Part shown: piece by piece, positions 32,681 through 47,751 of the stretch
Layout of the letters: every line of letters begins with the position of its first letter
Numbering within the stretch: the stretch's first letter is position 1
Assembly (NCBI GenBank): GCA_016177925.1
Contig: JACOUH010000133.1
Coordinates: 1 to 64,000 of the forward strand
Origin: Planctomycetota bacterium
GTDB taxonomy: Bacteria > Planctomycetota > Planctomycetia > Gemmatales > Gemmataceae
Direction: 5' to 3'
Length of the DNA stretch: 64,000 nucleotides
Notes under the pieces: model-generated
The model's input: only the letters and a program-made list of their open reading frames with translations
Databases searched by the model: none
What the model was told of the DNA's origin: nothing
Made by a program: the position numbers and the translations under genes

Positions 32681-34024
32681 ATGGCGAGGAAGAAGACACG
32701 AGCCCATTCTGGTCCTTCCCTGTTCCCGGAGGAAGAACTGCGGAACGGGCATTCAAATGGCGTCCACCGGAAAGTCCCGGTGGAGCGGCTGCCAACGAAC
32801 ACCACGACGCACCAGCATCCGATCCATCGCTGGTTTAACTGCATCGCGGGTTTTTCTCCTGAGTTTGTCCATGAATGCTGCGAGGAGGTCGCCCATCAGG
32901 AGCATCCCGTTAGCTTTCTTGATCCCTTCGCGGGATGCGCGACAGGACCGCTGGTCGCCTGCCAGCGGGGGATGCGAGCGATTGGCTATGAGCCGCACCC
33001 CTTCTTCTTCCGGATCGCAAAAGCCAAGCTCCCTGGCCCGGAGGCGATTCCGCAGCTTGATCAGATCGAGCGGGTGCTCGCCAAAGGGTTCCTCCAGCCA
33101 AAACCTCTCTCGCTGTTGCCGGAAGCGCCGGCAATCTTCCTGCACAAGCTGTTCCCAGAGAACTCCCTCGAGTCCCTGCTCGGGGCACGGGAAGCATTGT
33201 TCTCTGCGGAACTACGGGACAATGACCTCGCCTTCCTCGTGCTGTCACGAGTGTTGGACAAGAGTTCGCATTCGCAGACGGACGGCATCTACAAGGCTCC
33301 TACCTCTCGGAAAGGAGCCACGTCTCCTCTCGCAGCTTTTCACGGATCGGTGCGGGCGATCCGGTCCGATCTAGAGACGGCCAAGGGTCGCGATTACAGG
33401 AGCCTTGCGCTCATCAACCAGGCCTCCGCCGAGCGAATGCAGGCCGTTGCCGCCGATTCGGTGTCGCTGATCGTGACGTCTCCGCCTTATCTGAATAATT
33501 TCGACTTTGCGGAAATGACAAGGATGTATCTGTATTTCTGGGGGATGGCAACGACGTGGGGAGACATTACCGACCGGGTGCGAAGCAAGCTGATTGTGAA
33601 TACCACGACCGCTCTCAAGGGGCACAAAGCTCGCCAGGAAGAATACCGAGCTAACGTCCCCCTTCGACTGCGCCCTGACCTTGATTCGCTCGTGAAGGAG
33701 CTGGCGAATCGACGGACCACCAAGGCGGGGAAGAAAGAGTACGACTTCCTCGTTTATCCGTACTTCTCACAGATGACCACTGTGCTGAGGGAGTGCTTGC
33801 GTTGTCTGCGCCGGGGGGCGGGGATTCACCTCATGGTTGCAGATGCGGCACTCTACGGTGTTCACATCAGCACGCCGCAGGTGCTGTGCGAAACGCTCAG
33901 GGAGGTTGGGTTTCGCAATACCTCCTGCTCGTTGGTGAGGAAACGCGGTCACCGCTGGATTCTGTCTAAGCGGGAGGGATCTCAACAGGGGCTCGGCGAG
34001 TACCACGTATCGGCAATCAAATAG
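32681..34024 (+). CDS. DNA methyltransferase (amino-group, TSPPY type)
   Basis: 447 residues from ATG at 32681 (a TTG at 32663 opens the frame but lies nearer the promoter). Motif I is FLDPFAGCATGPLVA at about 82 and the catalytic motif IV is VTSPPYLNNFDFAEM at about 268, so AdoMet-binding precedes the catalytic block. TSPPY is most usual in N4-cytosine enzymes, but N6-adenine activity is possible. The N-terminal HPIHRWFNCIAGFSPEFV is shared with similar orphan and type II methyltransferases. GC content is clearly lower than outside the island. Followed after 18 bases by a putative nuclease gene. Confidence 0.85.
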   Translation: MARKKTRAHSGPSLFPEEELRNGHSNGVHRKVPVERLPTNTTTHQHPIHRWFNCIAGFSPEFVHECCEEVAHQEHPVSFLDPFAGCATGPLVACQRGMRAIGYEPHPFFFRIAKAKLPGPEAIPQLDQIERVLAKGFLQPKPLSLLPEAPAIFLHKLFPENSLESLLGAREALFSAELRDNDLAFLVLSRVLDKSSHSQTDGIYKAPTSRKGATSPLAAFHGSVRAIRSDLETAKGRDYRSLALINQASAERMQAVAADSVSLIVTSPPYLNNFDFAEMTRMYLYFWGMATTWGDITDRVRSKLIVNTTTALKGHKARQEEYRANVPLRLRPDLDSLVKELANRRTTKAGKKEYDFLVYPYFSQMTTVLRECLRCLRRGAGIHLMVADAALYGVHISTPQVLCETLREVGFRNTSCSLVRKRGHRWILSKREGSQQGLGEYHVSAIK

Positions 34025-34042
34025 CAGGGTGGGGTGGTTACG

Positions 34043-35071
34043 ATGGCTGAACCTGAATCGACCCTGTATCAGGTAGCCGACGCCGAGATTCGGTCCTGCA
34101 TTGACGTATATCTTCAGCTGATGCGGGCGACGAAGGGACTGAGCGACATGAAGCCCGAGCACCTCCAAGAGGAGCGGGCACGGATCATTTTGCTGGCCGG
34201 GCTGGCGATTCAGCAGTTCCAGTACACTCCCGAACAGGCAGTGGAGGAGTGGAAGAGGCGGCAGGCCATCCCGTTTGACCTGGAGGCGGCGGTTACCTTC
34301 GGCGTCTACAGAAACATCAGGCAGTGTGGTGTCCGGTTTCTCGACAACGTGGAGAAGATGACGAAGGGGTTCACCGAGTTCGAGCCTGATTTCATCCAGC
34401 AGAACCCCTACTTGCTCCCCATCCTTCAGCACTTGGCTGGCATCTTCAGCAAGTCCGCGTTGAAGAAGAAGGTGGGCAGTGTTTCCGACACTGCCATTTC
34501 AAAGCCGGCGTCCAAGCGACTTTCGGAGTTGTTGAAAGAGCGGGTTGATCCAAAATCGGTCAACAAAGGAGAGATTCTCCAACGACTTGAATCAACGCTG
34601 GAGGGCATCGTTCGCGATCTCGTCGGTCGGGTCCTGCTCGAATCGATCGTGGCGAGCGCACTCCAGGTCCAGGCCGTGCCCTTCAAACGAGAGGACGAGT
34701 ACGAGGCTCTGCCGGGAGTTGTGTATGACTTCCGAGCGGACTTTGTCATGCCCGACCCGGACAAACCGATGGCATTCATCGAGGTAAGAAAGTCTTCCGC
34801 CCGACACGCATCCCTCTATGCCAAGGACAAGATGTTCTCGGCGATCAATTGGAAAGGGAAGAATCCGCAGCTGCTGGCCGTTCTCGTTATTGACGGGGAG
34901 TGGACTGGAGAAACCCTTCGCGTGATGGCGAACGTCTTCGACTACGTCGTCCCGATCGGACGTGTCCCAGAACTCGTTGAGACCATCAAGGCGTACCTCG
35001 CCGGTGACAAGACAAAGCTGAAGTGGCTCATCCACTTCAAGATTACCGCAGCAGAGCCTCCAAAGGCATAA
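34043..35071 (+). CDS. Putative restriction endonuclease partner
   Basis: 342 residues. No named family is recognised. The N-terminal two thirds are helical (YLQLMRATKGLSDMKPEHLQ, FLDNVEKMTKGFTEFEPDFI). A likely nuclease core follows: YDFRADFVMPDPDKPMAFIE then VRKSSARHASLYAKDKMFSA; the active-site run reads E-V-R-K rather than a clean E-x-K, so the assignment is tentative. ATG at 34043 has GGGGTGG upstream; GTG at 34034 is possible. Directly behind the methyltransferase on the same strand, and its stop codon abuts the dndD-like remnant. Confidence 0.65.
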   Translation: MAEPESTLYQVADAEIRSCIDVYLQLMRATKGLSDMKPEHLQEERARIILLAGLAIQQFQYTPEQAVEEWKRRQAIPFDLEAAVTFGVYRNIRQCGVRFLDNVEKMTKGFTEFEPDFIQQNPYLLPILQHLAGIFSKSALKKKVGSVSDTAISKPASKRLSELLKERVDPKSVNKGEILQRLESTLEGIVRDLVGRVLLESIVASALQVQAVPFKREDEYEALPGVVYDFRADFVMPDPDKPMAFIEVRKSSARHASLYAKDKMFSAINWKGKNPQLLAVLVIDGEWTGETLRVMANVFDYVVPIGRVPELVETIKAYLAGDKTKLKWLIHFKITAAEPPKA

Positions 35072-35072
35072 G

Positions 35073-35673
35073 GGACCGCTTGCTCCGCGACGCCGGTGCC
35101 AAGACCGACCTGCTCCGGCGCGTGGCCGAGCACCTCGACCGCGACCGGCAGAAACGCATCGTCGCGGCCTACCCTGGCTGGCGGCTGGGACTCTCCGAGG
35201 CGGCGCGCGCCCTGCTGCATCACCTGCGCGGGCAACGCCTCGCCGAGTTCGACGCCGAGGTGCGCGGCCTGCTCGACAAGCTGGCGCACGTCGGGCAGGA
35301 GCGCGAGGACCGGGAGCGAGCCCTCGCGGCGACGCCCAGCGAGGCGGACATCGCCGCCGTCGTCGAGCGCTTCCGCAAGGCGACCGAGAACCTCACCCTG
35401 CTGAACGAGACGGCGGTTCGCCTCGATGGTCAGCTCAACGCCCGCAAGGTCGAGGCCGAGTTCGTCATGAAGAAGCTGGAGCAGCTCTGGGAGGCGACGG
35501 CGAAGGATGAGGCCGAGCGCGAGGATCGCCAGCGCATGGTCGGGCTGGCCTCCCGCACCCGCGAGACGATGCAGGTCTTCCTGCGGCGGGCGACGGAACG
35601 CAAGATCGCTCGCCTGTCGCGGCTGATCACGGAGTCGTTCCGCTTCCTGCTGCGCAAGCAGAAGGGAATCTGA
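35073..35673 (+). pseudogene. dndD-like ATPase, middle fragment (coiled coil)
   Basis: The frame begins RDRLLRDAGAKTDLLRRVAE one base after the nuclease stop and continues as a long charged coiled coil (VERFRKATENLTLLNETAVR, LDGQLNARKVEAEFVMKKLE) ending ATERKIARLSRLITESFRFL then LRKQKGI. This resembles the coiled-coil region of DndD before its C-terminal ATPase half, which is missing. No start site. Together with 32389-32478 it brackets the methyltransferase/nuclease pair, as if that pair had landed in a dndD gene, with deletion on both sides. Confidence 0.7.
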
Positions 35674-35896
35674 AGCGCAAGGTCAGGCACTTCCCGTAGC
35701 GGATCGGCTCGCGCCAGCCGCCGGCCAGAAAAACGAAGTGGACCCGGGGACCTTGTTGACAGCCCTCCCCACCCCTGCTATGTTTGTCGTCACCAAGCCA
35801 TTGATCGTTTCGCCTCAAGGAGATACGGCCTCGCCCTCTTCGCAACGGAGGCCCCACGGGACGGGGAGGGCAGGATCGCCAACGGAGGTCGCGGGC

Positions 35897-36907
35897 GTGC
35901 TGATTCGTAGAAACTGGCGCGAGCACCTGCCCTGGATCATCGTCATCCTGGCCATCTCGGTGGTGTCCATCTACTGGTACGGCGTCCTCGCCGCCGAGAC
36001 GCCCTGGGACCGCCGGCCCAAGGGCAGCGACCTCGCCCTGTTCGTGTTCGGCATCGCCGGCGGCAGTATCTGCTTGTTCGAGTTCCTTCTCTGGCCGCGC
36101 AAACGCTGGCGCGTCCTGCGCCTGGGGCCGACCAAGGTCTGGATGCGCGCCCACATCTGGCTCGGCCTGCTCGCCGTGCCGCTCCTGATCCTGCACAGCG
36201 GCTTCTACTTCCGCAACTTCGAGGCGACGCTCCTGCTCGTCCTGTTCTTGATCGTCATCCTTAGCGGCGTGTGGGGGTTGATCCTGCAGCAGATCATCCC
36301 GCAACGCATGCTTGCCGAGGTGCCCGCCGAGACGATCTATTCGCAGATCGAGCATGTCTCCAACCTGCTCGTCGAGGAGGGCGACCGGCTGGTGATCGCC
36401 ACCTGCGGCGTGACGAAAGCGACCGAGGCCGAGCCGGCGACCGCCCTCATCACCGCCCGCGAGGAGGAGGCGCTGCTGGCCGCCGCGGCCGCCAGCACGC
36501 ACTACACGGTCGGCGCCGTCCGGCAGGTCGGCGGCGTCCAGGGCATGGTCCTCGAGTCCAAGCCGGCCCTGCAGCCGGTGCCCAACTCGGAGCCGCTGCG
36601 CGACTTCTTCAACCAGACGGCCGCCCGCTACCTCAAGCGCGGCGCCGAGTCCCGCTCGCCGCTGGTCGACCCGACCCAGGCCCGCATCCTGTTCAGCGAC
36701 CTGCGCCTGGCCCTCGATCCGGCCGCCCACGAGGCCGTCGCCGCCCTGGAGAACCTCTGCGACCAGCGCCGCCAGTTCGACCGCCAAGCCAAGCTGCACT
36801 ACTGGCTGCACAACTGGCTGTGGGTCCACCTGCCGCTGTCGCTGGCCCTGATCCTTCTGATGTTCGTCCACATCTACAAGACCCTGCAATACTGGTGGCC
36901 GGGCTGA
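35897..36907 (+). CDS. Haem-b-like membrane electron-transfer protein
   Basis: 336 residues from GTG at 35897, which has GGAGG eight bases upstream. Five hydrophobic helices: four near the N-terminus (HLPWIIVILAISVVSIYWYG, DLALFVFGIAGGSICLFEFL, HIWLGLLAVPLLILHSGFYF, TLLLVLFLIVILSGVWGLIL) and one at the end (WVHLPLSLALILLMFVHIYK), with a soluble loop of about 170 residues between. Histidines in helix 3 (two, about 13 apart) and helix 5 (two, about 14 apart) could bind two b haems, as in cytochrome b561-like and ferric-reductase proteins. First gene of the redox operon, so probably the quinone- or membrane-side partner of the decaheme cytochrome. Confidence 0.75.
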   Translation: MLIRRNWREHLPWIIVILAISVVSIYWYGVLAAETPWDRRPKGSDLALFVFGIAGGSICLFEFLLWPRKRWRVLRLGPTKVWMRAHIWLGLLAVPLLILHSGFYFRNFEATLLLVLFLIVILSGVWGLILQQIIPQRMLAEVPAETIYSQIEHVSNLLVEEGDRLVIATCGVTKATEAEPATALITAREEEALLAAAAASTHYTVGAVRQVGGVQGMVLESKPALQPVPNSEPLRDFFNQTAARYLKRGAESRSPLVDPTQARILFSDLRLALDPAAHEAVAALENLCDQRRQFDRQAKLHYWLHNWLWVHLPLSLALILLMFVHIYKTLQYWWPG

Positions 36908-36911
36908 CCCG

Positions 36912-36965
36912 GTGGGGCAGGCATCTTGCCTGCCTCTGTCGTGGCAGGCTAGAAGCCTGCCCCAC
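36912..36965. repeat. 54-bp palindrome, GTGGGGCAGGC family
   Basis: Imperfect arms (GTGGGGCAGGCATCTTGCCT and GGCAGGCTAGAAGCCTGCCC plus CAC) in the gap between the first two genes of the redox operon. Confidence 0.88.
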
Positions 36966-37020
36966 GGACGGAAGGCATTGATCTCTCATCTGGGACTCGA
37001 GCAGCGGGAACGGCACTCCC

Positions 37021-38664
37021 ATGCCAATCACTGAAGGCAAACAGCGGGCGTCGCGCATCCCCCTGGATTATTACAAGCACCCCGACCCGCTGGTGCGCTG
37101 GAAGCGTCTGCTCGCCTGGGGGCTGAGCGGCCTGACCGTCGTCTGGATCGCCTCGGCCCTCCTCGGCGGCGACAAGGGTATTCTCGGCCAGCGCCGCTTC
37201 TCGCACGGTGCCGTCGCCGTCGCCCACAAGCCGATCGAACACGACTGTGCCGCCTGCCACGCCAGCTTCGGCCTGCTCGCTGGCAAGGAGAGCGTCGACG
37301 CGAAGTGCCAGACGTGCCACCTGGAATCTCCACGAGACTTCCATCACGATCAGAAGGAGTCAATGACGCCCAACTGCGGGCGCTGTCACTCCGACCACCA
37401 CGGCCTCGACTTCAACCTGGTCCGCACCACCGACCGCGACTGCATCGTCTGCCACAAGAACCTGCCCGGCTCGACGGACAAATCGCAGCTCGACTACATG
37501 GCGAAGATCAGTTCCTTCAGCGACGACCATCCCGAGTTCAAACTGCTCCGCGACAAGGAACCGGACCCGGGCAAGCTCAAGTTCAACCACAAGTACCACA
37601 TGACCGAGGGCATCGTCCTGGCCAAGGGCGGCAAAGTGATCACGGTCGGCGACATTGTCTCCGGCGAGCAGCAAAGTCGCTTCGGCAACAGCCGCAAGAA
37701 GACCGATGCCGTCAAGCTCGAGTGCGCCAACTGCCACGAGACGGAAACTCGCACCGAGCCCAGCAAGGACGACTGGCCCAATCCCGACCAGGATCGCAAG
37801 GGCTGGGAGGAAGCCGTCCGCAAGTATTACGCGGCGAAGCAGGATGCTCGCGGGCGCCTCCCCTCGGGGGAACTGCTGCCGCCGCGCAAGACCGGCAAGT
37901 ACATGAAGCCGATCAACTATGATAATCACTGTGCCGGTTGCCACCCGCTCAACTTCGACCCGAAGATCGACCGGCCCGTCGAACACGGCCTGCCGCTCAT
38001 GTCGGCGAAAGAGCAGGATCGCACGCTGCGCAAGGAGCTGACGAGGATCTACGAGGCCGAGTACGAGAAGGCCCCGACCAGCCTCGTGACGCGGTCGCCG
38101 TCGTTCCTGCCCCTGCCCGGCAAGCGGCGGGACGTCGAGGAGCCCAACCGCAGCCTGATCCCCGAGAAGGTCGACGAGGCGATGCGATCACTGCTGGCGG
38201 GCAAGCGGGCCTGCGGCGAATGCCACACCGACCGCGAGGGCAACGACCTGACCCTTGCGAGCACGGGCATCGCCAAACCGGACCTCCCCGTGATCTGGCT
38301 GAAACACGCTCGCTTCGACCACGCTGCCCACGACACGCGCGGCATCGATTGCGCCGTCTGCCACAAGGACGCTTATCCAAGCACCGAGAAGGACCTTCTC
38401 GATGCCTACGCCAGCCCGCGCAAGGGAGCGGAGAAGGTCCTGATTGAGGGCATCAACAACTGCAAGCAGTGTCACTCGTCGTCGCCCAAGCCGGAGTTCG
38501 CCGACCGCGGCTGGCAGGCCAAGCAGGACTGCACCGAGTGCCACTCGTATCACCAGGGCAAAGCGGGAACAGCGACCGCGCACCGTCCAGGCGGCGGCTT
38601 CCACGCCCAGCGGACGCGACATCTCGAGGAGTTGTTAGGACAACCGCTTAGCCCGAAGCGCTAG
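37021..38664 (+). CDS. Membrane-anchored decaheme cytochrome c
   Basis: 547 residues with ten CxxCH haem-binding motifs in order: CAACH, CQTCH, CGRCH, CIVCH, CANCH, CAGCH, CGECH, CAVCH, CKQCH and CTECH. One N-terminal membrane segment (LLAWGLSGLTVVWIASALLG, about residues 30-49) follows a basic stretch and has no cleavage site, so the haem domain is held to the membrane on the periplasmic side. Extra histidines (HSDHHG, FNHKYHM, HARFDHAAHD) could be distal ligands. The first four haems resemble the NapC/NrfH-type cytochrome c3-like spacing. Last residues (LSPKR) border a palindrome-like TTAGCCCGAAGCGC. Likely passes electrons between the haem-b-like protein and an outside acceptor. Confidence 0.9.
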   Translation: MPITEGKQRASRIPLDYYKHPDPLVRWKRLLAWGLSGLTVVWIASALLGGDKGILGQRRFSHGAVAVAHKPIEHDCAACHASFGLLAGKESVDAKCQTCHLESPRDFHHDQKESMTPNCGRCHSDHHGLDFNLVRTTDRDCIVCHKNLPGSTDKSQLDYMAKISSFSDDHPEFKLLRDKEPDPGKLKFNHKYHMTEGIVLAKGGKVITVGDIVSGEQQSRFGNSRKKTDAVKLECANCHETETRTEPSKDDWPNPDQDRKGWEEAVRKYYAAKQDARGRLPSGELLPPRKTGKYMKPINYDNHCAGCHPLNFDPKIDRPVEHGLPLMSAKEQDRTLRKELTRIYEAEYEKAPTSLVTRSPSFLPLPGKRRDVEEPNRSLIPEKVDEAMRSLLAGKRACGECHTDREGNDLTLASTGIAKPDLPVIWLKHARFDHAAHDTRGIDCAVCHKDAYPSTEKDLLDAYASPRKGAEKVLIEGINNCKQCHSSSPKPEFADRGWQAKQDCTECHSYHQGKAGTATAHRPGGGFHAQRTRHLEELLGQPLSPKR

Positions 38665-38671
38665 CAAGAGT

Positions 38672-38734
38672 TGTAGGACGGATTTCCAATCCGTCCGGGC
38701 GTCACGCCGGGACGGATTTCCAATCCGTCCTACA
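38672..38734. repeat. 63-bp palindrome, GGACGGATTTCCAATCCGTC family
   Basis: TGTAGGACGGATTTCCAATC plus CGTCC, spacer GGGCGTCACGCC, and its mirror. Each arm is itself palindromic. A second copy is at 62184-62243. It lies between the cytochrome and nuoEF-like genes. Confidence 0.92.
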
Positions 38735-38765
38735 GAAGGCGAGGGACAGAAGAGGAACAGCATCC

Positions 38766-40481
38766 ATGATCGTTCAAGAGTTGCGTCACATCCAGGAGCG
38801 CCTGGGCTGGCTGCCCAAGGAGGAGATGAAGGCCCTTGCCGAGCGCCTCGGCGTCCCGCTGCACCGCGTTCACGAGGTCGCCAGCTTCTATCCGTTGTAC
38901 AAGCTCTCGCCCCCCAAGGGCGTCGAAGTCAAGGTCTGCCGCGATATGGCCTGCCACCTCCGTGGAGCGCCACGGCTGCGCCAGACCCTTGAGGCGTTCG
39001 CCCAGGAAATTAGCCGTCCCGGTTGCCAGGTGACTGTCGAGGGTGTTTCGTGCCTGGGCCAGTGCGACCGGGCCATCGCCGTCTCGATCGAGGACCACTA
39101 CATCTACAAGGGTCTGCCCGAGTCCCAGCTCAAGCTGTGCATCGAGACGGCGGTCAAGAAGGGCAAGATGCCCTATCGCAAGGCCGGCCGCGAGCCGCTG
39201 GGCTGGAAGATCGACGTCTACAACGGCACGCCGCACTACGAGGCGGTCGGCCGCTTCATCCGCGGCGATCTCAACGCCGAAAAGGTCATTGCCGCCCTGA
39301 AGGCCTCCGGCCTGCGCGGCCTCGGCGGCGCCGGCTTCCCGACCTTCCGCAAGTGGGACACCGTCCGCCGCACCGCCGAAACTGTCAAGTACATTGTCTG
39401 CAATGCGGACGAGAGCGAGCCGGGGACCTTCAAGGATCGCGAATTGATGCGGCGCACCCCCTGGCTGGTGATCGAGGGAATGGTGCTCGCGTCCCTGGTA
39501 ACCGGGGCCGAGAAGGGCTACCTGTACCTGCGCCACGAGTACCCCGACGAGGAGGAGGCCCTCGCCGAGGCCCTGCGCGAGGCGCGGGGGAAATACCAGG
39601 TCATCGGCGATAGCATCCTGGGCAGCAACCGCAAGTTCGACCTTGAACTGTTCATCAGCCCCGGCGGCTATGTGCAGGGCGAGGAGTCGTCGCTGCTCGA
39701 GGCGATCGAGGACAAGCGCGGCGAGCCGCGCAACAAGCCGCCGTTCCCCGTCTTCCAGGGACTGTTCGGCAAGCCGACGGTCATCAACAACGTCGAGACG
39801 CTGTCGTGGACGCCCGGCATCGTGCTCAACGGCGGGGACTGGTACGCCAAGGGCGGGGTCAACGGCGCCAACGGCATGCGCTTCATTTCCATCTCCGGCG
39901 ATGTCGCCAAGCCGGGCGTCTACGAGGCGCCCTTCGGACTGACCGTGCGCGACCTGATTTACAAGTATTCCGGCGGCATGCGCGACGGCCAGCAACTGCT
40001 GGCGATCGCCCCCTCGGGCCCCTCGGGCGGCTTCCTCCCCGCCGTCCTCCGGCGCGAGAACCTGCCCGAAAAGTTCGTCGAGCAGAAAATGAAGGGCGCG
40101 AACATCTACGACGTGCTCGACCTGACGCTGGATAACGGCACGTTGTCGCTGGCCGGCTCGATGCTCGGCGCGGCCTTCGTCGTCTACGGCGACCGGGCCA
40201 ACATCGTCGAGCAGGCGCTCAACTGCGTCGAGTTCTACCGCAACGAATCGTGCGGCAAGTGCGTGCCGTGCCGCACCGGCTCGCAGAAGCTGGTCAACAT
40301 GATCCAGGAACTACTGGCCGGCAAGTCGAGCCGCGAGAGAATGAGCCTGGTCGGCGACCTGTCCGATACCATGATCCTGACGTCGATCTGCGGCCTCGGT
40401 CAGGTCGCCTCCAATCCGATCGCCTCGGTCCTGCGGCACTTCCGCCCCGATGTCGAGAAGTATCTCGCGGCCGGTCGCTGA
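38766..40481 (+). CDS. NuoE-NuoF fusion, NADH-dehydrogenase-type flavoprotein
   Basis: 571 residues. The NuoE part (1-140) has the [2Fe-2S] cysteines C58, C63, C96 and C100 (CRDMAC...SCLGQC). The NuoF part carries the FMN/NADH site (GLRGLGGAGFPTFRKWD, NADESEPGTFKDRELM), the SLBB-like segment (GDVAKPGVYEAPFGLTVRDL) and the 4Fe-4S motif ESCGKCVPCRTG near 493 with its last Cys in TSICGLGQV. Such fusions occur in hydrogenase and formate-dehydrogenase diaphorases; no Nuo membrane arm, hydrogenase or FdhA is in the window, so it must feed the iron-sulfur protein next door. Reaction: NAD(P)H oxidation or its reverse. Confidence 0.93.
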   Translation: MIVQELRHIQERLGWLPKEEMKALAERLGVPLHRVHEVASFYPLYKLSPPKGVEVKVCRDMACHLRGAPRLRQTLEAFAQEISRPGCQVTVEGVSCLGQCDRAIAVSIEDHYIYKGLPESQLKLCIETAVKKGKMPYRKAGREPLGWKIDVYNGTPHYEAVGRFIRGDLNAEKVIAALKASGLRGLGGAGFPTFRKWDTVRRTAETVKYIVCNADESEPGTFKDRELMRRTPWLVIEGMVLASLVTGAEKGYLYLRHEYPDEEEALAEALREARGKYQVIGDSILGSNRKFDLELFISPGGYVQGEESSLLEAIEDKRGEPRNKPPFPVFQGLFGKPTVINNVETLSWTPGIVLNGGDWYAKGGVNGANGMRFISISGDVAKPGVYEAPFGLTVRDLIYKYSGGMRDGQQLLAIAPSGPSGGFLPAVLRRENLPEKFVEQKMKGANIYDVLDLTLDNGTLSLAGSMLGAAFVVYGDRANIVEQALNCVEFYRNESCGKCVPCRTGSQKLVNMIQELLAGKSSRERMSLVGDLSDTMILTSICGLGQVASNPIASVLRHFRPDVEKYLAAGR

Positions 40482-40505
40482 GGCTGCTACAGTAAGAAGA
40501 TTCAC

Positions 40506-40590
40506 GGCGAGCGGGGGGTGTGAACCCCCTGATAAAGTCATCATCGCCAGAAAGATAAAGTCATCAGGGGGCTCACGCCCCCCGCTCGCC
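40506..40590. repeat. 85-bp palindrome, GGCGAGCGGGGGGTGTGAAC family
   Basis: Arms GGCGAGCGGGGGGTGTGAAC plus CCCCTGATAAAGTCATC and GATAAAGTCATCAGGGGG with GCTCACGCCCCCCGCTCGCC, around ATCGCCAGAAA. It contains a direct repeat of GATAAAGTCATC. Located between the nuoEF-like gene and the next gene. Confidence 0.9.
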
Positions 40591-40630
40591 AGAAAGTTCC
40601 GTCCCGCTCGCTTACTCATAAGGACCTCTC

Positions 40631-43030
40631 ATGGCCGCCGATAGTCCCCAGCAGAATGTCTTCGCCGCCATCATCGACGAGCACTACATCGAAGAGCCGA
40701 AGCTGGTCCAGCTCCTCAGCGCTCCGCCCGCCAAGATCACGATCGATGGCAAGGAAATTACGATTAAGCGGACCGCTTATGCCACCGACCCGGTGACCGG
40801 CAAGCCGTTCGCGCGACCGACGACGATCTACGACGCGGCGCTCCAGCTGGGGATCAACATCCCCATCCTGTGCCACCGTGAGCACATGACGCCGGTGGCC
40901 GTCTGCCGCTTTTGCGTCGTCGAGTTGGAGGGGCAGTATCGCCTGGCTCCCGCCTGCCAGCGCCAGGTCGAGGCCGGCATGGTGGTCAAGACAATCGCCA
41001 CCAGCGACCGCGTCAAGAACGCCGTCAAGATCCTGACGGAGTTGCTGCTGGCCGACCACGACACGCCGCGCGAGGCGCACAAGGAGTACGGCGAGAACGA
41101 GCTGCGTGTCATCGCCCGGCAACTCAACCTCGACCCGCACTCGTCGCGCTTCCCGCGCACCGCCCGCGACCGCGGTCACGACGAGTCGTCGATCGTGATC
41201 GCCGTCGACCACAACGCCTGCATCCTGTGCGACCGCTGCATCCGTGGCTGCGGCGAGATCCGCAACAACCAGATCATCGGCCGCATGAACAAGGGCTATC
41301 GCGCCCGCATCGCCTTCGACCTCAACGAGCCGATGGGCGAGTCCAACTGCGTCTCGTGCGGCGAGTGCATGGTGTCGTGCCCGACCGGCGCCCTGACCAA
41401 CCGCAAGTTTGTCCTGCCGCAGGTGACCGAGCGGCAGACCAACGTGCAGCGGATCACCGTCGAGGAACTGGCCCCGCATCCCCTCTTCCAGGGCGTGTCG
41501 AAGCAGTTCCTCGGCTGGAACGAGGGCGCCATCGTGCGCCGCCGTTTCAAGGCGGGCGAAATGATCTGCCGGGAAGGCGAATTCGGCAACAGCGCGTTCA
41601 TCATCGAGTCGGGCCAGCTCGAAGTCTTCATCGCCGCCCCCATGAAGCACGTCAAGGCCCGCAAGAACCGGGGCAAGGGCGACAAGGTCAACCGCGGTCT
41701 GTTCGGCCTGGTGCGCCGCTTCACCAGCAGCCTCGTCAGCACCAAGGACGACCGGATCGACCATCGCGACGGCGGCGCGTCGGGCCACCCCCAGCGCTAC
41801 ATCCCCATCGACGCCCCGGTCTCGCTCAACTTCGACGACCCGGTCGCAACGCTGACCGCCGACGACCTGATCTTCGGCGAAATGTCGTGCATGAACAACT
41901 ACCCGCGCTCGGCCAGCGTGCGCGCCAAGACCGACGTCGTCGTGCTGGAGATCCTGCGCAATGTCCTGTACATCCTGCAGCGCAACAAGAAGTCGAAGGC
42001 GATGCTCGACGAGGTCTATCGCCGCCGCTCCATCGAGGGGCACTTGCGCAGCGTGCCGATGTTCTCGAACCTGATGCGCGACGAGGACCGCTTCCGCCAG
42101 TTCCTCGAGGACTTCCGCGAGCGGATGACGCTGGTGCGGCTGAACCCCGGCGAGGTGATCTTCCGCCAGGGCGACGCAGCCGACAACTTCTATCTCGTCA
42201 AGTTCGGCTTCGTGAAAGTGTCGCAGAAGCAGCCCGGCGGCGAGCACGTCCTCAGCTACGTCGGGCCCGGCGGCTACATCGGCGAGATCGGCCTGTTGTC
42301 GGAGATCCCCGAGATCGCGGCGCTGGCTCCGCCGGGACGTCGCGTCGCCACCTGTCAGGCGCTGGACCACGTCGACCTGGTCAAGATCACCGGCGCCGCC
42401 TTCCAGGAGATCCTCGCCAAGTTCCCCGAGGTCCGCGAGCAGCTGGTGCAGGTCGCGCTGGACCGCCTGCACGAGAACGAGGTCAGCCGGCAGCGCGCCG
42501 AAACGACATCGATGGGCGAGTTCGTGCGGCAGGGCCTGATGAACGCCCAGAGCCTGCTGGTACTCGACCTGACCAAGTGTACGCGCTGCGACGAGTGTAC
42601 CAAGGCGTGCGCCGACGCCCACGACGGCGTGACGCGGCTGATCCGCGACGGTCTGCGCTTCGAGAACTGGCTGGTAGCGTCGTCGTGCCGGTCGTGCCTG
42701 GACCCGTACTGCATGGCCGGCTGCCCGGTCGACGCCATCCACCGCAAGAAGACGCGCGAGATGGTCATCGAGGACTGGTGCATTGGCTGCGGCAACTGCG
42801 CCAAGAACTGCCCCTACGGCAACATCAACATGCACGGCTTCGAGGTACAGGAAGAGGACCCGAACCACCCCGGTCATCAGATGGCGGTCGTCAAGCAGAA
42901 GGCGACCATGTGCGACCTCTGTTCGGAGCTGGACGGCAAGCCGAGCTGCGTCTACGCCTGTCCGCACGACGCCGCCCACCGCTACTCCGGCGACGAGTTC
43001 CGCAAGATCGTCGAGGGCCGGCAGCGCTAG
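40631..43030 (+). CDS. Multidomain iron-sulfur protein with two cyclic-nucleotide-binding domains
   Basis: 799 residues with an unusual layout. Residues 35-115: plant-type [2Fe-2S] domain (ILCHREHMTPVAVCRFCVVE, PACQRQ) as at the start of NuoG. 120-280: NuoG-like His-Cys stretch then two 4Fe-4S clusters (CILCDRCIRGC, CVSCGECMVSC). 290-460: first cyclic-nucleotide-binding domain (RFKAGEMICREGEFGNSAFI, then after an about 100-residue insert LIFGEMSCMNNYPRSASV). 470-620: second one (LNPGEVIFRQGDAADNFYLV, GGYIGEIGLL). 640-790: four-cluster ferredoxin of the HybA/NrfC/DmsB kind (CTRCDECTKAC, CRSCLDPYCMAGC, CIGCGNCAKNC, CDLCSELDGKPSC). The molybdenum domain of NuoG is absent. Probably an electron hub between NuoEF-like and membrane partners, gated by a nucleotide; the gating is inference. 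Confidence 0.92.
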   Translation: MAADSPQQNVFAAIIDEHYIEEPKLVQLLSAPPAKITIDGKEITIKRTAYATDPVTGKPFARPTTIYDAALQLGINIPILCHREHMTPVAVCRFCVVELEGQYRLAPACQRQVEAGMVVKTIATSDRVKNAVKILTELLLADHDTPREAHKEYGENELRVIARQLNLDPHSSRFPRTARDRGHDESSIVIAVDHNACILCDRCIRGCGEIRNNQIIGRMNKGYRARIAFDLNEPMGESNCVSCGECMVSCPTGALTNRKFVLPQVTERQTNVQRITVEELAPHPLFQGVSKQFLGWNEGAIVRRRFKAGEMICREGEFGNSAFIIESGQLEVFIAAPMKHVKARKNRGKGDKVNRGLFGLVRRFTSSLVSTKDDRIDHRDGGASGHPQRYIPIDAPVSLNFDDPVATLTADDLIFGEMSCMNNYPRSASVRAKTDVVVLEILRNVLYILQRNKKSKAMLDEVYRRRSIEGHLRSVPMFSNLMRDEDRFRQFLEDFRERMTLVRLNPGEVIFRQGDAADNFYLVKFGFVKVSQKQPGGEHVLSYVGPGGYIGEIGLLSEIPEIAALAPPGRRVATCQALDHVDLVKITGAAFQEILAKFPEVREQLVQVALDRLHENEVSRQRAETTSMGEFVRQGLMNAQSLLVLDLTKCTRCDECTKACADAHDGVTRLIRDGLRFENWLVASSCRSCLDPYCMAGCPVDAIHRKKTREMVIEDWCIGCGNCAKNCPYGNINMHGFEVQEEDPNHPGHQMAVVKQKATMCDLCSELDGKPSCVYACPHDAAHRYSGDEFRKIVEGRQR

Positions 43031-43035
43031 GCGAC

Positions 43036-43095
43036 CCCGCCGCTTGCGGCTTAGTATCTCCGGCCGCGCCGGGCTGCTAAGCCGCAAGCGGCGGG
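43036..43095. repeat. 60-bp palindrome, CCGCTTGCGGCTTAG family
   Basis: CCCGCCGCTTGCGGCTTAG at 43036 and its mirror CTAAGCCGCAAGCGGCGGG at 43077. A second copy is at 47882-47926. It fills the gap between the iron-sulfur gene and the SthA-like gene. Confidence 0.92.
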
Positions 43096-43114
43096 TTGCG
43101 GGAGGGGCACGGTC

Positions 43115-44647
43115 ATGGGGGAAGGGCCCTGTCATGAGTTCGACCTCGTCGTGATCGGCTCGGGGCCGGCCGGCGAGAAGGGAGCGGCCGCGGCCGCGTA
43201 TTTCGGCAAGCGCGTCGCCTTGATCGAGAAGGACGATCACTACGGCGGCGCCGCGGCCAACACCGGCACCCTGCCCTCCAAGACGCTGCGCGAGACCGCC
43301 CTCATCCTGTCGGGGCTGCGGCAGCGGCAGATCTTCGGCCTGAAGTTCGGCCTGGAGGGCAACCTCCGCATCCAGGACTTCCTGTCCCACGAACGCCGCG
43401 TCAAGGATTACGAGCGATTCCGTATCCGCAACAACCTCAAGTATCACGGCGTCACCGTCTTTGCAGGCCGCGCCTCCTTCGTCGACGATCACACCGTCCA
43501 GGTCACGCCGCAGCGGTCGAAACCCGATCGGTTACGAGGCGAGAAGATCCTGATCGCCACCGGTTCCTATCCTTTTCGGCCGAAGGAATTGTTCCCGTTC
43601 ACCAGCACGCGCGTCTTCGACTCGGACACGATCCTGTCCCTGTACGAAATCCCCAAGTCGCTGCTCGTCGTTGGCGGTGGCGTGATCGGATGCGAATATG
43701 CTTGCATGTTCGCGGCGCTGGGGGTGGCGGTGACGATGGTCGAGAAGCGCGGCGGGCTGCTCGGCGGCGTTGACCGCGAGATTGCCGAGTCGCTCCACGA
43801 GCAGATGAGCGACGCCGGCATGGAAATCATCCTCCAGGACGAGGTCGCCGAGATCCGCAATCACCCGGCGCCGCGCGTCCCGCTCGGGCAGCGCGGCGGG
43901 ACGCCGCCCGAGCCCGACGCCCCTCTGGAAGCCGAGTTGAAGTCCGGCCGCGTGCTGCACCCCGCCGCCATCCTCGTCTCGTCGGGCCGCAGCGGGCAGA
44001 CGGCGGGGCTGGAGCTGGACCGGATCGGCATCGAGGTCAACGAACGCGGCCACATCAAGGTTGACTCGAAGACGTTTCAGACGAACGTGCCGCACATCTA
44101 CGCGGCCGGCGACGTCATCGGCAACCCGGCCCTGGCGTCGACGGCGATGGCGCAGGCGCGCATGGCCGTCGCCCATGCCTTCAACTTGCCCTTCAACACC
44201 GGCCTGGCCGAGATGCTGCCGGCCGGCATCTTCACGATCCCCGAGTGCTCCAGCGTCGGCGAGACGGAAGAGTCGCTGAAGAAGAAGGACATCGGCTACG
44301 TCGCCGGGCGAGCGTTCTATGCCGGCAATGCCCGCGGCCAGATCATCGGCGATAGCAAGGGCTTCCTCAAACTGCTCTTTCATCAGGACGACCTCGCCCT
44401 GCTCGGCATCCACGTGATCGGCGAGCAGGCTACCGAACTGGTCCACATCGGCCTGACCGCCCTGCTGATGAAGGCTAAGGCCGACTTGTTCATCCACACT
44501 TGCTACAACTACCCGACGTTGTCGGAGCTGTACAAGTACGCAGCGTATGACGCCCTGGGGAAGTGGCAGAAACTGCGCTGCGAGGGCGACGCCGAAGCGG
44601 GGATCGCAGAGCAGGTGCTCCAGGCCGAGCCGACGAAAGCTGTGTGA
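43115..44647 (+). CDS. sthA: SthA-like FAD/NAD(P)-binding oxidoreductase (soluble transhydrogenase-like)
   Basis: 510 residues of the dihydrolipoamide-dehydrogenase-like family. FAD motif VVIGSGPAGEKGAAAA, second nucleotide motif LLVVGGGVIGCEYACMFAALG, FAD-binding IYAAGDVIGNPALAS and the dimerisation tail (HTCYNYPTLSELYKYAAYDA) are present. The redox-active pair is absent: the segment reads GGAAANTGTLPSKTLRE, with no cysteine, as expected for transhydrogenases that use FAD alone. Predicted reaction: hydride transfer between NADPH and NAD. A small palindrome (GCGTCCCGC...GCGGGACGC, 43876-43905) is read in frame near residue 257. Belongs to the redox operon. Confidence 0.88.
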   Translation: MGEGPCHEFDLVVIGSGPAGEKGAAAAAYFGKRVALIEKDDHYGGAAANTGTLPSKTLRETALILSGLRQRQIFGLKFGLEGNLRIQDFLSHERRVKDYERFRIRNNLKYHGVTVFAGRASFVDDHTVQVTPQRSKPDRLRGEKILIATGSYPFRPKELFPFTSTRVFDSDTILSLYEIPKSLLVVGGGVIGCEYACMFAALGVAVTMVEKRGGLLGGVDREIAESLHEQMSDAGMEIILQDEVAEIRNHPAPRVPLGQRGGTPPEPDAPLEAELKSGRVLHPAAILVSSGRSGQTAGLELDRIGIEVNERGHIKVDSKTFQTNVPHIYAAGDVIGNPALASTAMAQARMAVAHAFNLPFNTGLAEMLPAGIFTIPECSSVGETEESLKKKDIGYVAGRAFYAGNARGQIIGDSKGFLKLLFHQDDLALLGIHVIGEQATELVHIGLTALLMKAKADLFIHTCYNYPTLSELYKYAAYDALGKWQKLRCEGDAEAGIAEQVLQAEPTKAV

Positions 44648-44703
44648 ACATTCTTCTCCCCTTTCCCCCGAGGGGAGCGGGGGAAGAAGACGGGAGGAAC
44701 GCA

Positions 44704-44796
44704 ATGGTTTGGGACGCCATCCTGACGGGGGCCGTCGTCGTGGCAGTGGTCGGGCTTCTGCTCTGGCTCTTGCCGCGCCTGGGCAAGGGCGGCTGA
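44704..44796 (+). CDS. 30-residue single-helix membrane peptide ending the redox operon
   Basis: ATG at 44704 has GGGAGG six bases upstream. The peptide MVWDAILTGAVVVAVVGLLL then WLLPRLGKGG is one hydrophobic helix of about 18 residues with a basic end, 57 bases behind the sthA-like gene. Small subunits of this kind often accompany membrane redox complexes; the role is inference. Confidence 0.6.
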   Translation: MVWDAILTGAVVVAVVGLLLWLLPRLGKGG

Positions 44797-45095
44797 GGCC
44801 CGCGCGGGTGCTCCGGCACCTCCGGCCCGTCGGGCCGTTCCGCAGAGCCGGTGTCTCGCCCTGACGAGATGGCAGACCGGCCCCCCGATTTCTGAGCCGC
44901 CCGCGCGGAATTTCCAAAAAAGTCATCGTCTTCGATTTGACCGCCCCTCAACTTCTGTTCTAGATTTCCTTTAGCAGCGCAATTTGCCCCTGCCTTTTCG
45001 CCTCGGGCGCAACGGCTCGGAGGAAACCATCCTTCGTCCCGGTCGACTCGCATCCTGGGGGCAAGCCGCTCATTCTCCCGGAGGATTTCACGTCG
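44797..45095. other. Regulatory gap before the two-component genes
   Basis: Noncoding. It carries a promoter-like pair (44937-44966) and a stretch of lower GC just before the histidine kinase gene; otherwise nothing is recognised. Confidence 0.5.
44937..44966 (+). promoter_or_regulatory. Sigma70-type promoter candidate for the histidine kinase operon
   Basis: -35 TTGACC at 44937-44942, 18-bp spacer, -10 TAGATT at 44961-44966, in a locally AT-rich stretch 130 bases before the kinase start. Confidence 0.5.
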
Positions 45096-46811
45096 ATGGC
45101 AGCGATCAACCACGCCCCCGGGACCTCCCCGAGTGATCGCAGCCGCGCCGTGCTGGAGTTGATTCACGGCTGGCTGAGCCAGCCAGGAGCGGAGCGTTCC
45201 TCCCTTGTCGACCTGGTCCGCGATTTGGCAGAGGCATTCGCCGCCAGCGCCGCCGGGGTCGCCGTCCTGACCGACGGCGCTGTGCTGGTGCGCGAGGCGG
45301 TCGGAGCCGGTCCGGAATCTCAAGGGGCCCTGCCGTGGGTTGAGCAGCCTGGGCTCCTGGCCGAAGTGCGCCGCAGCGTGTCGGCGCTCTCCGTGCCGTC
45401 GCGTCAGGGCCGGATGTTTTTGTGTACAGCCGTCCAACCGCGTGGGGCTTGCGGATGGCTCTTCTGGGTCGAGGCGGAGGCGGGTCGAACGTGGAGTCCC
45501 GCTGAGTCGGCGGCCCTGGCGCTGGCGGGACAGGCGGCTGTCCGCTGGCTGGAGGCACAAGACGCGGGGCCTGCGTGGGCTCATCAGCTGGAGCACGCCG
45601 CCCAGCAGCGCCGGCTCGAGGACGCCGCCGTGTGGACGCGGCGCCTGGCCCATGACTACGGCAACGTGTTAACCAGCATCCTCGGCTTCACCGAGCTGAG
45701 CCTGTCCCAGCTTTCCGACAGTTCCCCGCTCCGGCGTTACCTGAGCGAGGTCCACCGCGGGGCTCAGCAGGGGGCCCTTCTGACCGAGCGTCTGCGTCTG
45801 TTCGCGCGGCGGCCGGCGTCGTCGGGACAGGCCACGTTCCTGGGACACGTTCTCGCCCAGCAGCGGGAACGATTTGCGAACGAGGGCCCCGCTGTCGAAT
45901 TGCGGTTGGACCTCCCCGCCAACCTGCCGCCGGTGGCCCTCGGCTCGGACGCCTTGCAGGACGTCTTGGGGCCGCTGCTCGACAACGCCCGGGAGGCGAT
46001 CGCCCAGAAGGGTCGCGTGACGGTAACGGCACAGTTCGTGCAGCTATCCTCTGTTGACTGCCTTGCGCTGTGGGGCAGCCCCGGACCGGGCCCCCAGGTG
46101 TGCGTCGAGATCAGCGACACGGGTTGTGGCCTGACCGCCGACGCCGAGGCGAAACTGTTCCGCGAGCCGTTCTTTACGAACAAGCCGCGCCACCGCGGCC
46201 TCGGCCTGGCAACCGTCTATGGCGTGCTGGTGTCCAACCGCAGCGGTTTCGCCCTGCTGCCGGGCCCGCAGGGCGGCGTGATCGCCCGCGTGTACTTGCC
46301 CATCGCGGCAGGGGCCCTTCTCCCGGCGCGACCCGCTGGCGCGGGCGGGGCCCCTGCGCCAGCTCGGTGCCCTCCCGCGCCAGCGGGTCGCGCCGGCACG
46401 GAGGGGAAGATCCTCGTCGTTGATGACGACCCTGGTGTTCTGGAAATGGTCAGCGATACGCTCCGCCAGGTGGGCTATCGGGTGCAGACGGCCGCCAGCG
46501 CTGCCGAGGCGGTGGCGCTGGTTGGGGCCTCGCGGATGCAGCCGTTCAACCTGGTGCTGTCCGATATCGTCATGGAGCCGACCTCGGGCGTGGAACTCGC
46601 CCGCCAGCTGCTCTGCCGCGACGCCAACCTGCGTCTGCTGTTCATGAGCGGGGAGGTGTCGCAGGAATCCCTGCGGGGCGACCTTGGCGGGCAGCCGTTC
46701 GAGCTGCTGGCCAAGCCGTTCCGCGTCGACGGCCTGCTGCGGGCCGTGCATAAGGCACTGCAAGACCCGCCGCGGCCCGACCCGCTCGCGCGGGTGCCCT
46801 TGAAGACCTGA
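45096..46811 (+). CDS. Histidine kinase fused to a receiver domain
   Basis: 571 residues, cytoplasmic, no membrane helix. A GAF-like N-terminal sensor (about 25-170) precedes the HisKA helix with the phosphorylated His in RRLAHDYGNVLTSILGF (near 189), the ATPase domain (LLDNAREAIAQKG, ISDTGCGL, FFTNKPRHRGLGLATVYG) and a C-terminal receiver (KILVVDDDPGVLEMVSDTLR, LVLSDIVM, LLAKPFR). Residues 410-434 between ATPase and receiver (ARPAGAGGAPAPARCPPAPA) are encoded by a 74-bp palindrome, so a repeat forms the interdomain linker. GGAGG lies upstream of the ATG. Probably pairs with the next gene. Confidence 0.92.
   Translation: MAAINHAPGTSPSDRSRAVLELIHGWLSQPGAERSSLVDLVRDLAEAFAASAAGVAVLTDGAVLVREAVGAGPESQGALPWVEQPGLLAEVRRSVSALSVPSRQGRMFLCTAVQPRGACGWLFWVEAEAGRTWSPAESAALALAGQAAVRWLEAQDAGPAWAHQLEHAAQQRRLEDAAVWTRRLAHDYGNVLTSILGFTELSLSQLSDSSPLRRYLSEVHRGAQQGALLTERLRLFARRPASSGQATFLGHVLAQQRERFANEGPAVELRLDLPANLPPVALGSDALQDVLGPLLDNAREAIAQKGRVTVTAQFVQLSSVDCLALWGSPGPGPQVCVEISDTGCGLTADAEAKLFREPFFTNKPRHRGLGLATVYGVLVSNRSGFALLPGPQGGVIARVYLPIAAGALLPARPAGAGGAPAPARCPPAPAGRAGTEGKILVVDDDPGVLEMVSDTLRQVGYRVQTAASAAEAVALVGASRMQPFNLVLSDIVMEPTSGVELARQLLCRDANLRLLFMSGEVSQESLRGDLGGQPFELLAKPFRVDGLLRAVHKALQDPPRPDPLARVPLKT
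46323..46396. repeat. 74-bp palindrome encoding the kinase-receiver linker
   Basis: CCGGCGCGACCCGCTGGCGC plus GGG and its mirror around GCGGGGCCCCTGCGCCAGCT. It is read through in frame. Relatives are at 46895-47000 and, as half copies, near 46776 and 22568. Confidence 0.88.
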
Positions 46812-46854
46812 ACCCCCCGACCCAGACGTCGGGCAATCGAAGGAGATCCTAGCG

Positions 46855-47655
46855 GTGAGTTTTCGCGTACCCAATAACGTCTCGACTGTGAACACGGCTC
46901 GACCCGCTCTCGCGGGTGCCCCGAATGCCCACGAGGCTCCGCTCGATAGCCGGGGCATCTGCGCCAACTCGGTGCCCTCCCGCGACAGCGGGTCGGGCCG
47001 GCCGCGCAACGCGGAGCCGGCGACCGAGTCTTCCGGCCTGTACTGCTCCGGCGAGGTGCGCATCCTCGTCCTGGATGACGACGACCAGGTCGGCCGCATG
47101 ATCCGCGAGGCGCTGGAGGGCAAGGGCTTTCACGTCGACGTCGTCTCCGACACGCGCCAGATCGGGGCGCAGCTGCGCCAGCAGCCGTACCACCTCATCA
47201 TTCTCGACTATGTGCTGCCGGGCCTCGACTCCGAGCAGGTGCTCGACTGGATCAAGGAGCATCAGGCCGACGCCAGCATCATCGTGGTGACGGCGTACCC
47301 GTCGGTCGACAGCGCCCTGAGCTGCCTGCGGGCGCGCACCTACGACTACCTGACCAAGCCGTTCCAGATCACGCACCTGCAAGGGGTGGTGACGCGCTGC
47401 CTGGAGAGCAAGGGCCTGCTGCGACTGTCGGAGGACGCTCTGAAAGTGGCCCTGGGGGCTGCGATCCGCGAACGCCGCAAGGGCCTCGGCCTGACGCTGG
47501 CCCAGATGGCGCAGCGGACCAGCGTGTCGCTGGGTTACCTGTCGCAGATCGAACTGGGCAAGAACTCGGCGTCGATCGAGACGCTCTACCGCATCTCGCT
47601 GGGACTTGGCATCCGCATGAGCGATCTGTTCCAGGCGGTGCAGGCCGCGCTGTAG
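46855..47655 (+). CDS. Response regulator with receiver and XRE-type DNA-binding domains
   Basis: 266 residues. The GTG at 46855 has AAGGAG upstream. Residues 14-49 (RPALAGAPNAHEAPLDSRGI) are encoded by a palindromic repeat. The receiver spans about 66-185 (RILVLDDDDQVGRMIREALE, phospho-Asp in LIILDYVLPG, VVTAYPS, YLTKPFQ). The C-terminal domain is an XRE-type helix-turn-helix (GLTLAQMAQRTSVSLGYLSQ then IELGKNSASIETLYRISLGL). Receiver plus XRE is a less usual pairing than OmpR, NarL or NtrC types. Likely output partner of the kinase 43 bases upstream. Confidence 0.92.
   Translation: MSFRVPNNVSTVNTARPALAGAPNAHEAPLDSRGICANSVPSRDSGSGRPRNAEPATESSGLYCSGEVRILVLDDDDQVGRMIREALEGKGFHVDVVSDTRQIGAQLRQQPYHLIILDYVLPGLDSEQVLDWIKEHQADASIIVVTAYPSVDSALSCLRARTYDYLTKPFQITHLQGVVTRCLESKGLLRLSEDALKVALGAAIRERRKGLGLTLAQMAQRTSVSLGYLSQIELGKNSASIETLYRISLGLGIRMSDLFQAVQAAL
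46895..47000. repeat. Palindromic repeat at the 5' end of the response regulator gene
   Basis: CGGCTCGACCCGCTCTCGCG plus GGTGCC at the left, complementary CCCGCGACAGCGGGTCGGGC plus CG at the right, with a longer spacer. Read in frame as residues 14-49. Confidence 0.8.
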
Positions 47656-47675
47656 AGCATTTTGCCAACGCGTGT

Positions 47676-47749
47676 GGCGAGCGGGGTCCGTAATGACCCC
47701 GGTTTGCTGCTGGTTGTTCGTACCGGGGTCATTACGGACCCCGCTCGCC
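47676..47749. repeat. 74-bp palindrome, GGCGAGCGGGGTCCGTAATG family
   Basis: Arms GGCGAGCGGGGTCCGTAATG plus ACCCCGG, spacer TTTGCTGCTGGTTGTTCGTA. It shares the GGCGAGCGGGG tip with the family at 3504. It lies between the convergent response regulator and selD genes. Confidence 0.92.
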
Positions 47750-47751
47750 AG

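Follow-up and report, generated by a model that had tools for sequence, protein, structure and literature searches.

A candidate NAD(P)H:multihaem-cytochrome c oxidoreductase with a tandem cyclic-nucleotide-binding iron-sulfur hub in Planctomycetota and Acidobacteriota

What kind of electron-transfer system would join an NADH-oxidising module, a pair of cyclic-nucleotide-binding (CNB) domains and a ten-haem cytochrome in a single run of genes? The question is raised by a locus in a 64,000-nucleotide stretch of DNA (the window) from a member of the Gemmataceae (Planctomycetota), which is part of contig C471 in a 484-contig, 7.35 Mb draft genome. In the ORF list of the window, six open reading frames (ORFs) in one orientation, all on the forward strand, span 35897-44796, just where an earlier note made from the letters alone had placed them. 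That note read all six as one complex. We find that conservation extends to four of these genes and not to all six: a cytochrome b-like membrane protein (cytb), a decahaem c-type cytochrome, a NuoE-NuoF fusion (EF) and an iron-sulfur protein with tandem CNB domains (the hub). Judged by its relatives, the four-gene set is a real and undescribed module. We think it rather probable that it encodes a membrane-bound NAD(P)H:multihaem-cytochrome c oxidoreductase, built around an Fe-S hub with tandem CNB domains and gated by a cyclic nucleotide.

Conservation of the gene set

Relatives were collected with a hub profile search of genome contigs, which confirmed at least 541; the best 80 named loci were kept and are the basis of every count out of 80 given here. 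These 80 are labelled Planctomycetota, Acidobacteriota, Rokubacteria, Methylomirabilota and Actinobacteria. The earlier note would have counted it as a refutation if no relative had kept the gene order, and this is clearly not the case: 64 of the 80 loci unite all four genes, and ten others either run into the end of a contig or are not long enough to tell (L039, L040, L049, L053, L058, L075, L083, L084, L094, L097). Among the first 14 stretches, all four genes are present in 12, with EF and hub only in one (L027) and a formate dehydrogenase in another (L031). The genes come in two orders, cytb-decahaem-EF-hub in many planctomycetes and EF-hub-cytb-decahaem in Acidobacteriota, and they are tightly spaced: gaps of 30 bp or less separate EF and hub in 67 of 78 pairs, hub and cytb in 42 of 47, and cytb and decahaem in 51 of 65, where starts are taken as the first possible codon and overlaps may be overstated. 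A complete five-gene operon is found in a named strain, Tautonia sociabilis GM2012 (L050). Because gene order and cofactor ligands are kept across phyla, the association is more than chance.

At E of at most 1e-60 the hub turns up in 18 genomes of a set of 59 relatives that includes the window's own, and a sample of 294 genomes from the phylum gives 23 that carry it. In a tree of hub C-terminal parts, the nearest relatives are from Gemmatales/Gemmataceae and other planctomycete metagenome-assembled genomes (MAGs). Three MAGs named Candidatus Kuenenia stuttgartiensis (L044, L078, L084) have hubs that group with other planctomycetes, and their labels look wrong.

The two remaining genes of the window do not share this conservation. 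Gene 5 (43115..44647) encodes an SthA-like soluble NAD(P)+ transhydrogenase that passes the cut-off of NCBIfam NF003585, Si-specific NAD(P)+ transhydrogenase (518.9 against 465 bits), and we regard it as accessory: few loci, most of them planctomycete, have SthA next after the hub, and they are a minority. Gene 6 (44704..44796) is a 30-residue hydrophobic ORF. None of the 11 other loci with SthA that were tested has it downstream of that gene, which makes it private to the window among these, and it is probably not part of the system. The six-gene complex of the earlier note is thus rejected as a unit, and its four core genes stand.

Cofactor chain and donor modules

How well is the chain of cofactors kept from one protein to the next? 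EF (38766..40481) comprises a thioredoxin-like 2Fe-2S domain, an FMN/NADH domain, an SLBB domain and an N3-type 4Fe-4S domain, with Pfam matches to 2Fe-2S_thioredx, Complex1_51K, SLBB and NADH_4Fe-4S. The cysteines of its NuoE part (C58, C63, C96, C100) and of its NuoF part (C496, C499, C502, C542) are invariant in 14 of 14 sequences, and a match to 7e5z_B, from FDH1 of Methylorubrum, covers residues 2-562.

The hub (40631..43030) carries 2Fe-2S and two 4Fe-4S clusters of HoxU/HydA type, CNB-A, CNB-B and a C-terminal ferredoxin part with ligands for four 4Fe-4S clusters; in Pfam it matches Fer2_4, 4Fe-4S pairs, cNMP_binding and a C-terminal 4Fe-4S ferredoxin. We aligned 86 hubs (85 of the 86 candidate rows plus the window, with L031 dropped). 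The cysteines of the 2Fe-2S cluster (81, 92, 95, 109) and of both N-terminal 4Fe-4S clusters are invariant in all 86, and those of the four C-terminal clusters are invariant or conserved to at least 90%. Where the earlier note saw a NuoG-like start to a fusion of Fe-S, CNB-CNB and ferredoxin parts, the fusion holds and the start needs correcting: the N-terminus is closest to HydA, HoxU and the alpha subunit of NAD-dependent formate dehydrogenase, and is not especially close to NuoG. Its match to the FeFe_hydrog_A6 profile spans positions 15-232 of 571 only (178.5 bits against a cut-off of 765). All structure models used here are single chains, read for confidence and secondary structure; that of the hub has a predicted local distance difference test (pLDDT) score of 84 and matches formate dehydrogenase/HydA (7vw6_A) and the tandem-CNB regulatory subunits of PKA and PKG. 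The dropped candidate, L031 (G024:C15), was rejected as a hub owing to a molybdopterin domain that marks a formate dehydrogenase alpha subunit. This ORF (9370-12162) is of the NAD type and shares 55% identity with the hub over the N-terminal Fe-S part, and the same genome, G024, holds the module too.

Cytb (35897..36907; GTG start, 336 aa) is a diheme-b-like membrane protein with five predicted transmembrane helices. Four histidines, H86, H100, H311 and H325, are kept in every one of 70 rows. Helices of membrane type in the AlphaFold2 model (pLDDT 90) cover 7-34, 46-63, 79-101, 108-141 and 302-333, the last being part of a longer helix, and the histidines lie in the third and fifth of these as two pairs, H86/H311 and H100/H325. 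A basic segment ahead of helix 3 would place the N-terminus and the 142-300 domain in the cytoplasm; H86/H311 would then lie towards the cytoplasmic side and H100/H325 towards the periplasmic side.

The decahaem protein (37021..38664; 547 aa) has an N-terminal hydrophobic membrane anchor and ten CXXCH motifs, and matches Cytochrome_C7 and MtrC/F-like families in Pfam. Exactly ten CXXCH are found in 68 of 72 homologues, with nine in three and eight in one; a few of the 72 are the same contig fetched twice, and a frameshift-split copy (L022) is left out of the count. The number is also ten in 13 of 13 more divergent loci with a decahaem ORF. Against known families the protein stays below cut-off (GSU2203, 32.6 against 325 bits; DmsE, 21.6 against 192.2 bits). 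Conserved order and ligands uphold the earlier note in its view of one redox module, made of a diaphorase part that oxidises NADH, the CNB Fe-S hub, the b-type protein in the membrane and the decahaem.

Inspection of 16 further loci reveals that the front end of this module changes. Eight short-hub loci (L120, L121, L123-L128), and L135 as well, lack the hub's N-terminal Fe-S part together with the EF gene and have hub, cytb and decahaem. Four others (L129-L132) have no NuoEF; in these, a gene for an FNR-type reductase (FAD, NAD, 2Fe-2S; recognised by Pfam in L129 and L131 and by tblastn in L130 and L132) adjoins hub, cytb and decahaem. Of the rest, L133 has EF and a full hub, and no cytb or decahaem is seen in L122 and L134. 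On a tree of 102 hub C-terminal parts the type C loci form a single clade (support 100), and 3 changes are enough to explain the module-type labels where shuffled ones take 14.6; the tree was made by a quick method with the Shimodaira-Hasegawa approximate likelihood-ratio test (SH-aLRT) only and has several long branches. The NADH module is exchangeable, and the unrelated FNR-type NAD(P)H reductase is a non-orthologous replacement for it. This supplies the strongest sequence argument for the donor: since two unrelated NAD(P)H-oxidising flavoproteins join one and the same hub-cytb-decahaem core, NAD(P)H is the predicted source of electrons.

Forkhead-associated (FHA) domains are fused to parts of the module at two of the divergent loci, namely to the short hub and the reductase of L131 and to the decahaem protein of L127 and the ORF before its hub. 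These fusions suggest a phosphothreonine input into the electron route. The FHA-bearing decahaem ORF of L127 lies at 3572-5983, and those of the hub and the reductase of L131 lie at 8550-10565 and 6899-8515.

Cyclic-nucleotide sites and the proposed mechanism

Now we consider what the CNB pair may do. The hub matches cNMP_binding with 117.7 bits, and both domains bear the Glu and Arg of the phosphate-binding cassette. In CNB-A (cassette at 41831..41914, around G416-E417 to R426-S427-A428), E417, R426 and A428 are invariant in 86 of 86 hubs; in CNB-B (42269..42349, around G551-E552 to R571-A573), E552 and A573 are invariant and R571 is conserved to at least 90%. The CNB-A Glu and Arg are kept in 32 of 32 rows over all three module types (the window, 16 from the later-fetched loci and every sixth homologue of the hub alignment).

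A possible source of ligand is encoded close by at a number of loci. Of 94 loci searched with a cyclase profile, 18 have a class III adenylate/guanylate cyclase; in 12 the distance to a core gene is below 1 kb, and in three (L029, L059, L071) the cyclase is flanked by core genes. Pfam confirms Guanylate_cyc in the seven tested (L056, L059, L066, L071, L078, L080, L104), where the partner domains are CHASE2, GAF, FHA-GAF or none recognised. A cyclase lies within 1 kb of the module at 11 of the 80 loci against 0.71 expected, and within 5 kb at 14 against 0.98, in counts that ignore relatedness. Whole-genome counts for the 80 loci give a median of two cyclases per genome, and in seven genomes (L061, L066, L079, L081, L091, L104, L111) the sole class III cyclase that Pfam detects is within 6.1 kb of the module. 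Among the 59 relatives, cyclases are present in 18 of 18 genomes with a hub and 29 of 41 others (Fisher 0.012; confounded by kinship), a co-presence that weakly supports the link.

Drawing these pieces together, we propose a route in which NADH would reduce the FMN of the NuoEF subunit, and SthA could supply electrons from NADPH. Electrons would pass from the N3-type 4Fe-4S cluster to the 2Fe-2S and two 4Fe-4S clusters at the hub's N-terminus, on to its C-terminal domain of four 4Fe-4S clusters, and from there through two membrane-spanning b haems to the anchored decahaem on the periplasmic side. The decahaem would hand them to periplasmic multihaem carriers, for example the C554-type tetrahaem protein often encoded alongside. 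Placed between the hub's two Fe-S modules, the CNB pair would bind the cyclic nucleotide made by a class III cyclase, and the link between the modules would open or close. Outward flow from NADH would be downhill both in redox potential and with an inside-negative membrane potential, and with no pumping site it would conserve no energy. Left ungated it would waste NADH and potential, so a gate would be needed, and a gate worked by a second messenger would make sense of the CNB pair. The earlier note called the route self-contained, which is too strong; its final electron acceptor is a prediction.

If this is true, a second messenger would control transmembrane electron flow directly and not through transcription; to our knowledge no known respiratory or electron-transfer complex has a cyclic-nucleotide sensor in its electron path. 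The module would also give Acidobacteriota and Planctomycetota, which are abundant and poorly understood in soil and water, another way out for NADH electrons besides complex I, and the acceptors might be extracellular. We are evenly balanced on the wider claim that this is a new class of respiratory complex, in which cAMP or cGMP on the tandem CNB domains, inside the Fe-S wire, would be the switch that sends electrons from NAD(P)H out of the cell to multihaem cytochromes, periplasmic or extracellular, with an exchangeable donor module (NuoEF/NuoG-like, FNR-like or other), an optional FHA input and often a cyclase of its own, in at least Planctomycetota and Acidobacteriota.

Could the same genes serve another purpose? 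Pairs of cytochrome b and multihaem c often contact the quinone pool, and with the quinol:multihaem systems of metal reducers as a model, the hub could feed a quinone site in cytb and the decahaem could be the outlet on the quinol side, for a net NADH:quinone or quinol:cytochrome c reaction. Cytb does have residues beyond the haem ligands that could line a pocket, the invariant G124, G127, Q131 and E145 and the near-invariant H305. However, Q131 and H305 are not retained in type C loci, no quinone-site family is recognisable in cytb by Pfam, NCBIfam or fold search, and the hosts already have complex I; we regard a quinone-linked enzyme as unlikely. Flow in the reverse direction, from periplasmic donors through decahaem, cytb and hub to NAD+, would turn the module into a lithotrophic or anammox-like supply of NAD(P)H. 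Many loci do have genes for multihaem proteins, C554-type ones among them, at their side, and NAD(P)H production has been proposed for the anammox Rieske/cytochrome b complexes that contain NAD(P) oxidoreductases (PMC12954380, in excerpt). Such flow would nevertheless run uphill against both redox and membrane potential without a coupling site, and the locus has no Rieske or bifurcating part, which makes this direction quite improbable.

Still harder to credit is a signal transducer, in which the Fe-S clusters and haems would sense redox state and the CNB domains, or elsewhere FHA domains, would relay the signal. The FHA domains that L127 and L131 carry on hub, decahaem or FNR-type partner would fit such a role, as would the neighbouring cyclases, but Pfam finds no output domain in the four core proteins, and the cofactor chain is preserved in full, from the NAD(P)H site through to the ten haems, which exceeds what a sensor needs.

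The gated NAD(P)H:multihaem-cytochrome c oxidoreductase that we prefer has to contend with several observations of its own. No known family or solved b-type cytochrome is matched by cytb, and its identity rests on the invariant histidines and the helices: there is no match in Pfam or NCBIfam for gene 1 (nor for the ORF that holds the 30-residue peptide), no Foldseek match among solved structures at E 0.001 or better, and profile and fold searches of solved structures return low-scoring or helical-bundle matches (the VIA-align rows being helical bundles) with no solved b-type cytochrome among them. Six of the 80 loci have room for cytb and decahaem and show neither (L046, L047, L048, L052, L056, L108). 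The short-hub type B has no recognised NADH module alongside, so NADH need not be the sole donor. The CNB-B Glu and Arg are lost in the four type C loci. Most loci have no adjoining cyclase, the window included, and the 13 cyclase matches of the window genome are on other contigs. Finally, the cyclase proximity statistic takes no account of kinship among loci, to which the varied architecture and position of the adjacent cyclases (upstream, between or downstream of the core genes) is a partial answer.

Surroundings of the locus and known systems

Beyond what the earlier note held, the comparison brings out the exchangeable NADH module and frequent partners at other loci, which besides the class III cyclases include a C554-type tetrahaem cytochrome near the module in 57 of the 80 and, beside 26 of the 80, a protein of roughly 1250 residues with about nine CXXCH and LVIVD repeats (for example at 14465-18223 in L082). 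The window locus has neither of these two; C554 homologues of its genome are on contigs C112 and C7. As the earlier note said, the locus holds no hydrogenase, formate dehydrogenase or Nuo membrane arm, no such domain being found in its proteins by Pfam or NCBIfam, and the genome encodes complex I elsewhere (NuoH on C264 and C289, NuoE at C289). Of the 59 relatives, 56 have NuoH, as do all 20 module hosts that were tested from among the 80, and since hosts have complex I, the module would be an extra NADH outlet. One genome that holds the module, G019 (L023/L036; 99% complete), gives no NuoH match at E 1e-20 and may depend on NADH dehydrogenases of another kind.

Upstream of the six genes the sole promoter-like match is a sigma-70-like candidate at 35756..35784 on the forward strand (TTGACA-17-TATGTT with TG ahead of the -10 element), a match to consensus only; the scan of 35500-45200 gave 2 matches where shuffles expect 0.7, the second being at 44937, past the operon. 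Intergenic gaps in the window, at 84-149 bp, are longer than those of the relatives, and three contain palindromic repeats. Palindromes resembling repetitive extragenic palindromic (REP) elements, GGGGCAGGC..GCCTGCC, have 12 matches in the window against 0.03 expected, at 4996-5044, 14841-14861, 18440-18540, 36914-36963, 57524-57544 and 58179-58227, with one pair between cytb and the decahaem gene; by eye, further palindromes are seen in the EF-hub gap (about 40510-40590) and in the hub-SthA gap. The block at 32663-35673, upstream, has a DNA-methylase-like ORF with a TSPPY motif (by eye) and a second ORF whose DndD-like match is weak and does not reach the cut-off, and is possibly a defence or modification locus. 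Downstream, translations from 45096-48926 resemble a histidine kinase with a receiver domain and a helix-turn-helix response regulator, with a selenophosphate synthase-like gene on the opposite strand.

How does the module compare with known systems? The earlier note took the combination to be undescribed, and in the literature searched, which excluded preprints and subscription papers and was judged from listings and the openings of abstracts, we found no description of it. The nearest published analogue found is the group of anammox Rieske/cytochrome b complexes with NAD(P) oxidoreductases; those of Kuenenia (Kuste4569-4574 and Kustd1480-1485) have Rieske, b6-like cytochrome b, FAD oxidoreductase and hexa- or octahaem c subunits (PMC12954380, in excerpt). 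Like them, as far as that excerpt describes them, the module joins a membrane b-type and a multihaem c-type cytochrome to a cytoplasmic NAD(P) oxidoreductase. Unlike them, it has no Rieske protein, its b protein matches no known family, its c-type cytochrome is a decahaem, its flavoprotein is NuoEF or FNR and it has a tandem CNB; the six window genes give no Rieske or bc1/b6-type cytochrome b family match in Pfam or NCBIfam.

The NuoE-NuoF fusion and the hub's N-terminal Fe-S module resemble the diaphorase modules of FDH1 (Methylorubrum), HydABC and Hox, whereas in the module a CNB-CNB-ferredoxin part leading to a membrane cytochrome replaces the Mo/W or H-cluster domain. Pfam finds no molybdopterin domain, H-cluster or NiFe catalytic domain in the hub, and the molybdopterin domain is present in the comparison protein L031. 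With the N-module of complex I (NuoEFG) the module shares the FMN/NADH site and first Fe-S clusters, the NuoE and NuoF domains being present, but the locus has no Q-module or membrane arm and the hub shows, by eye, no NuoG-type His/Cys motif for cluster N5. The tandem CNB fold, with its cassette Glu and Arg, is that of PKA and PKG regulatory subunits; the CNB pair of the module differs in being fused between Fe-S modules and in having no kinase partner. At the membrane, CbcL-like cytochrome b/multihaem c exits of metal reducers likewise pair a diheme b with a multihaem c and take their electrons from quinol, whereas the module has a cytoplasmic NADH/Fe-S part attached. The module thus lacks a defining feature of complex I, of hydrogenase, of formate dehydrogenase and of the anammox-type complex alike, and on these comparisons of sequence its architecture appears new, with a function that is predicted.

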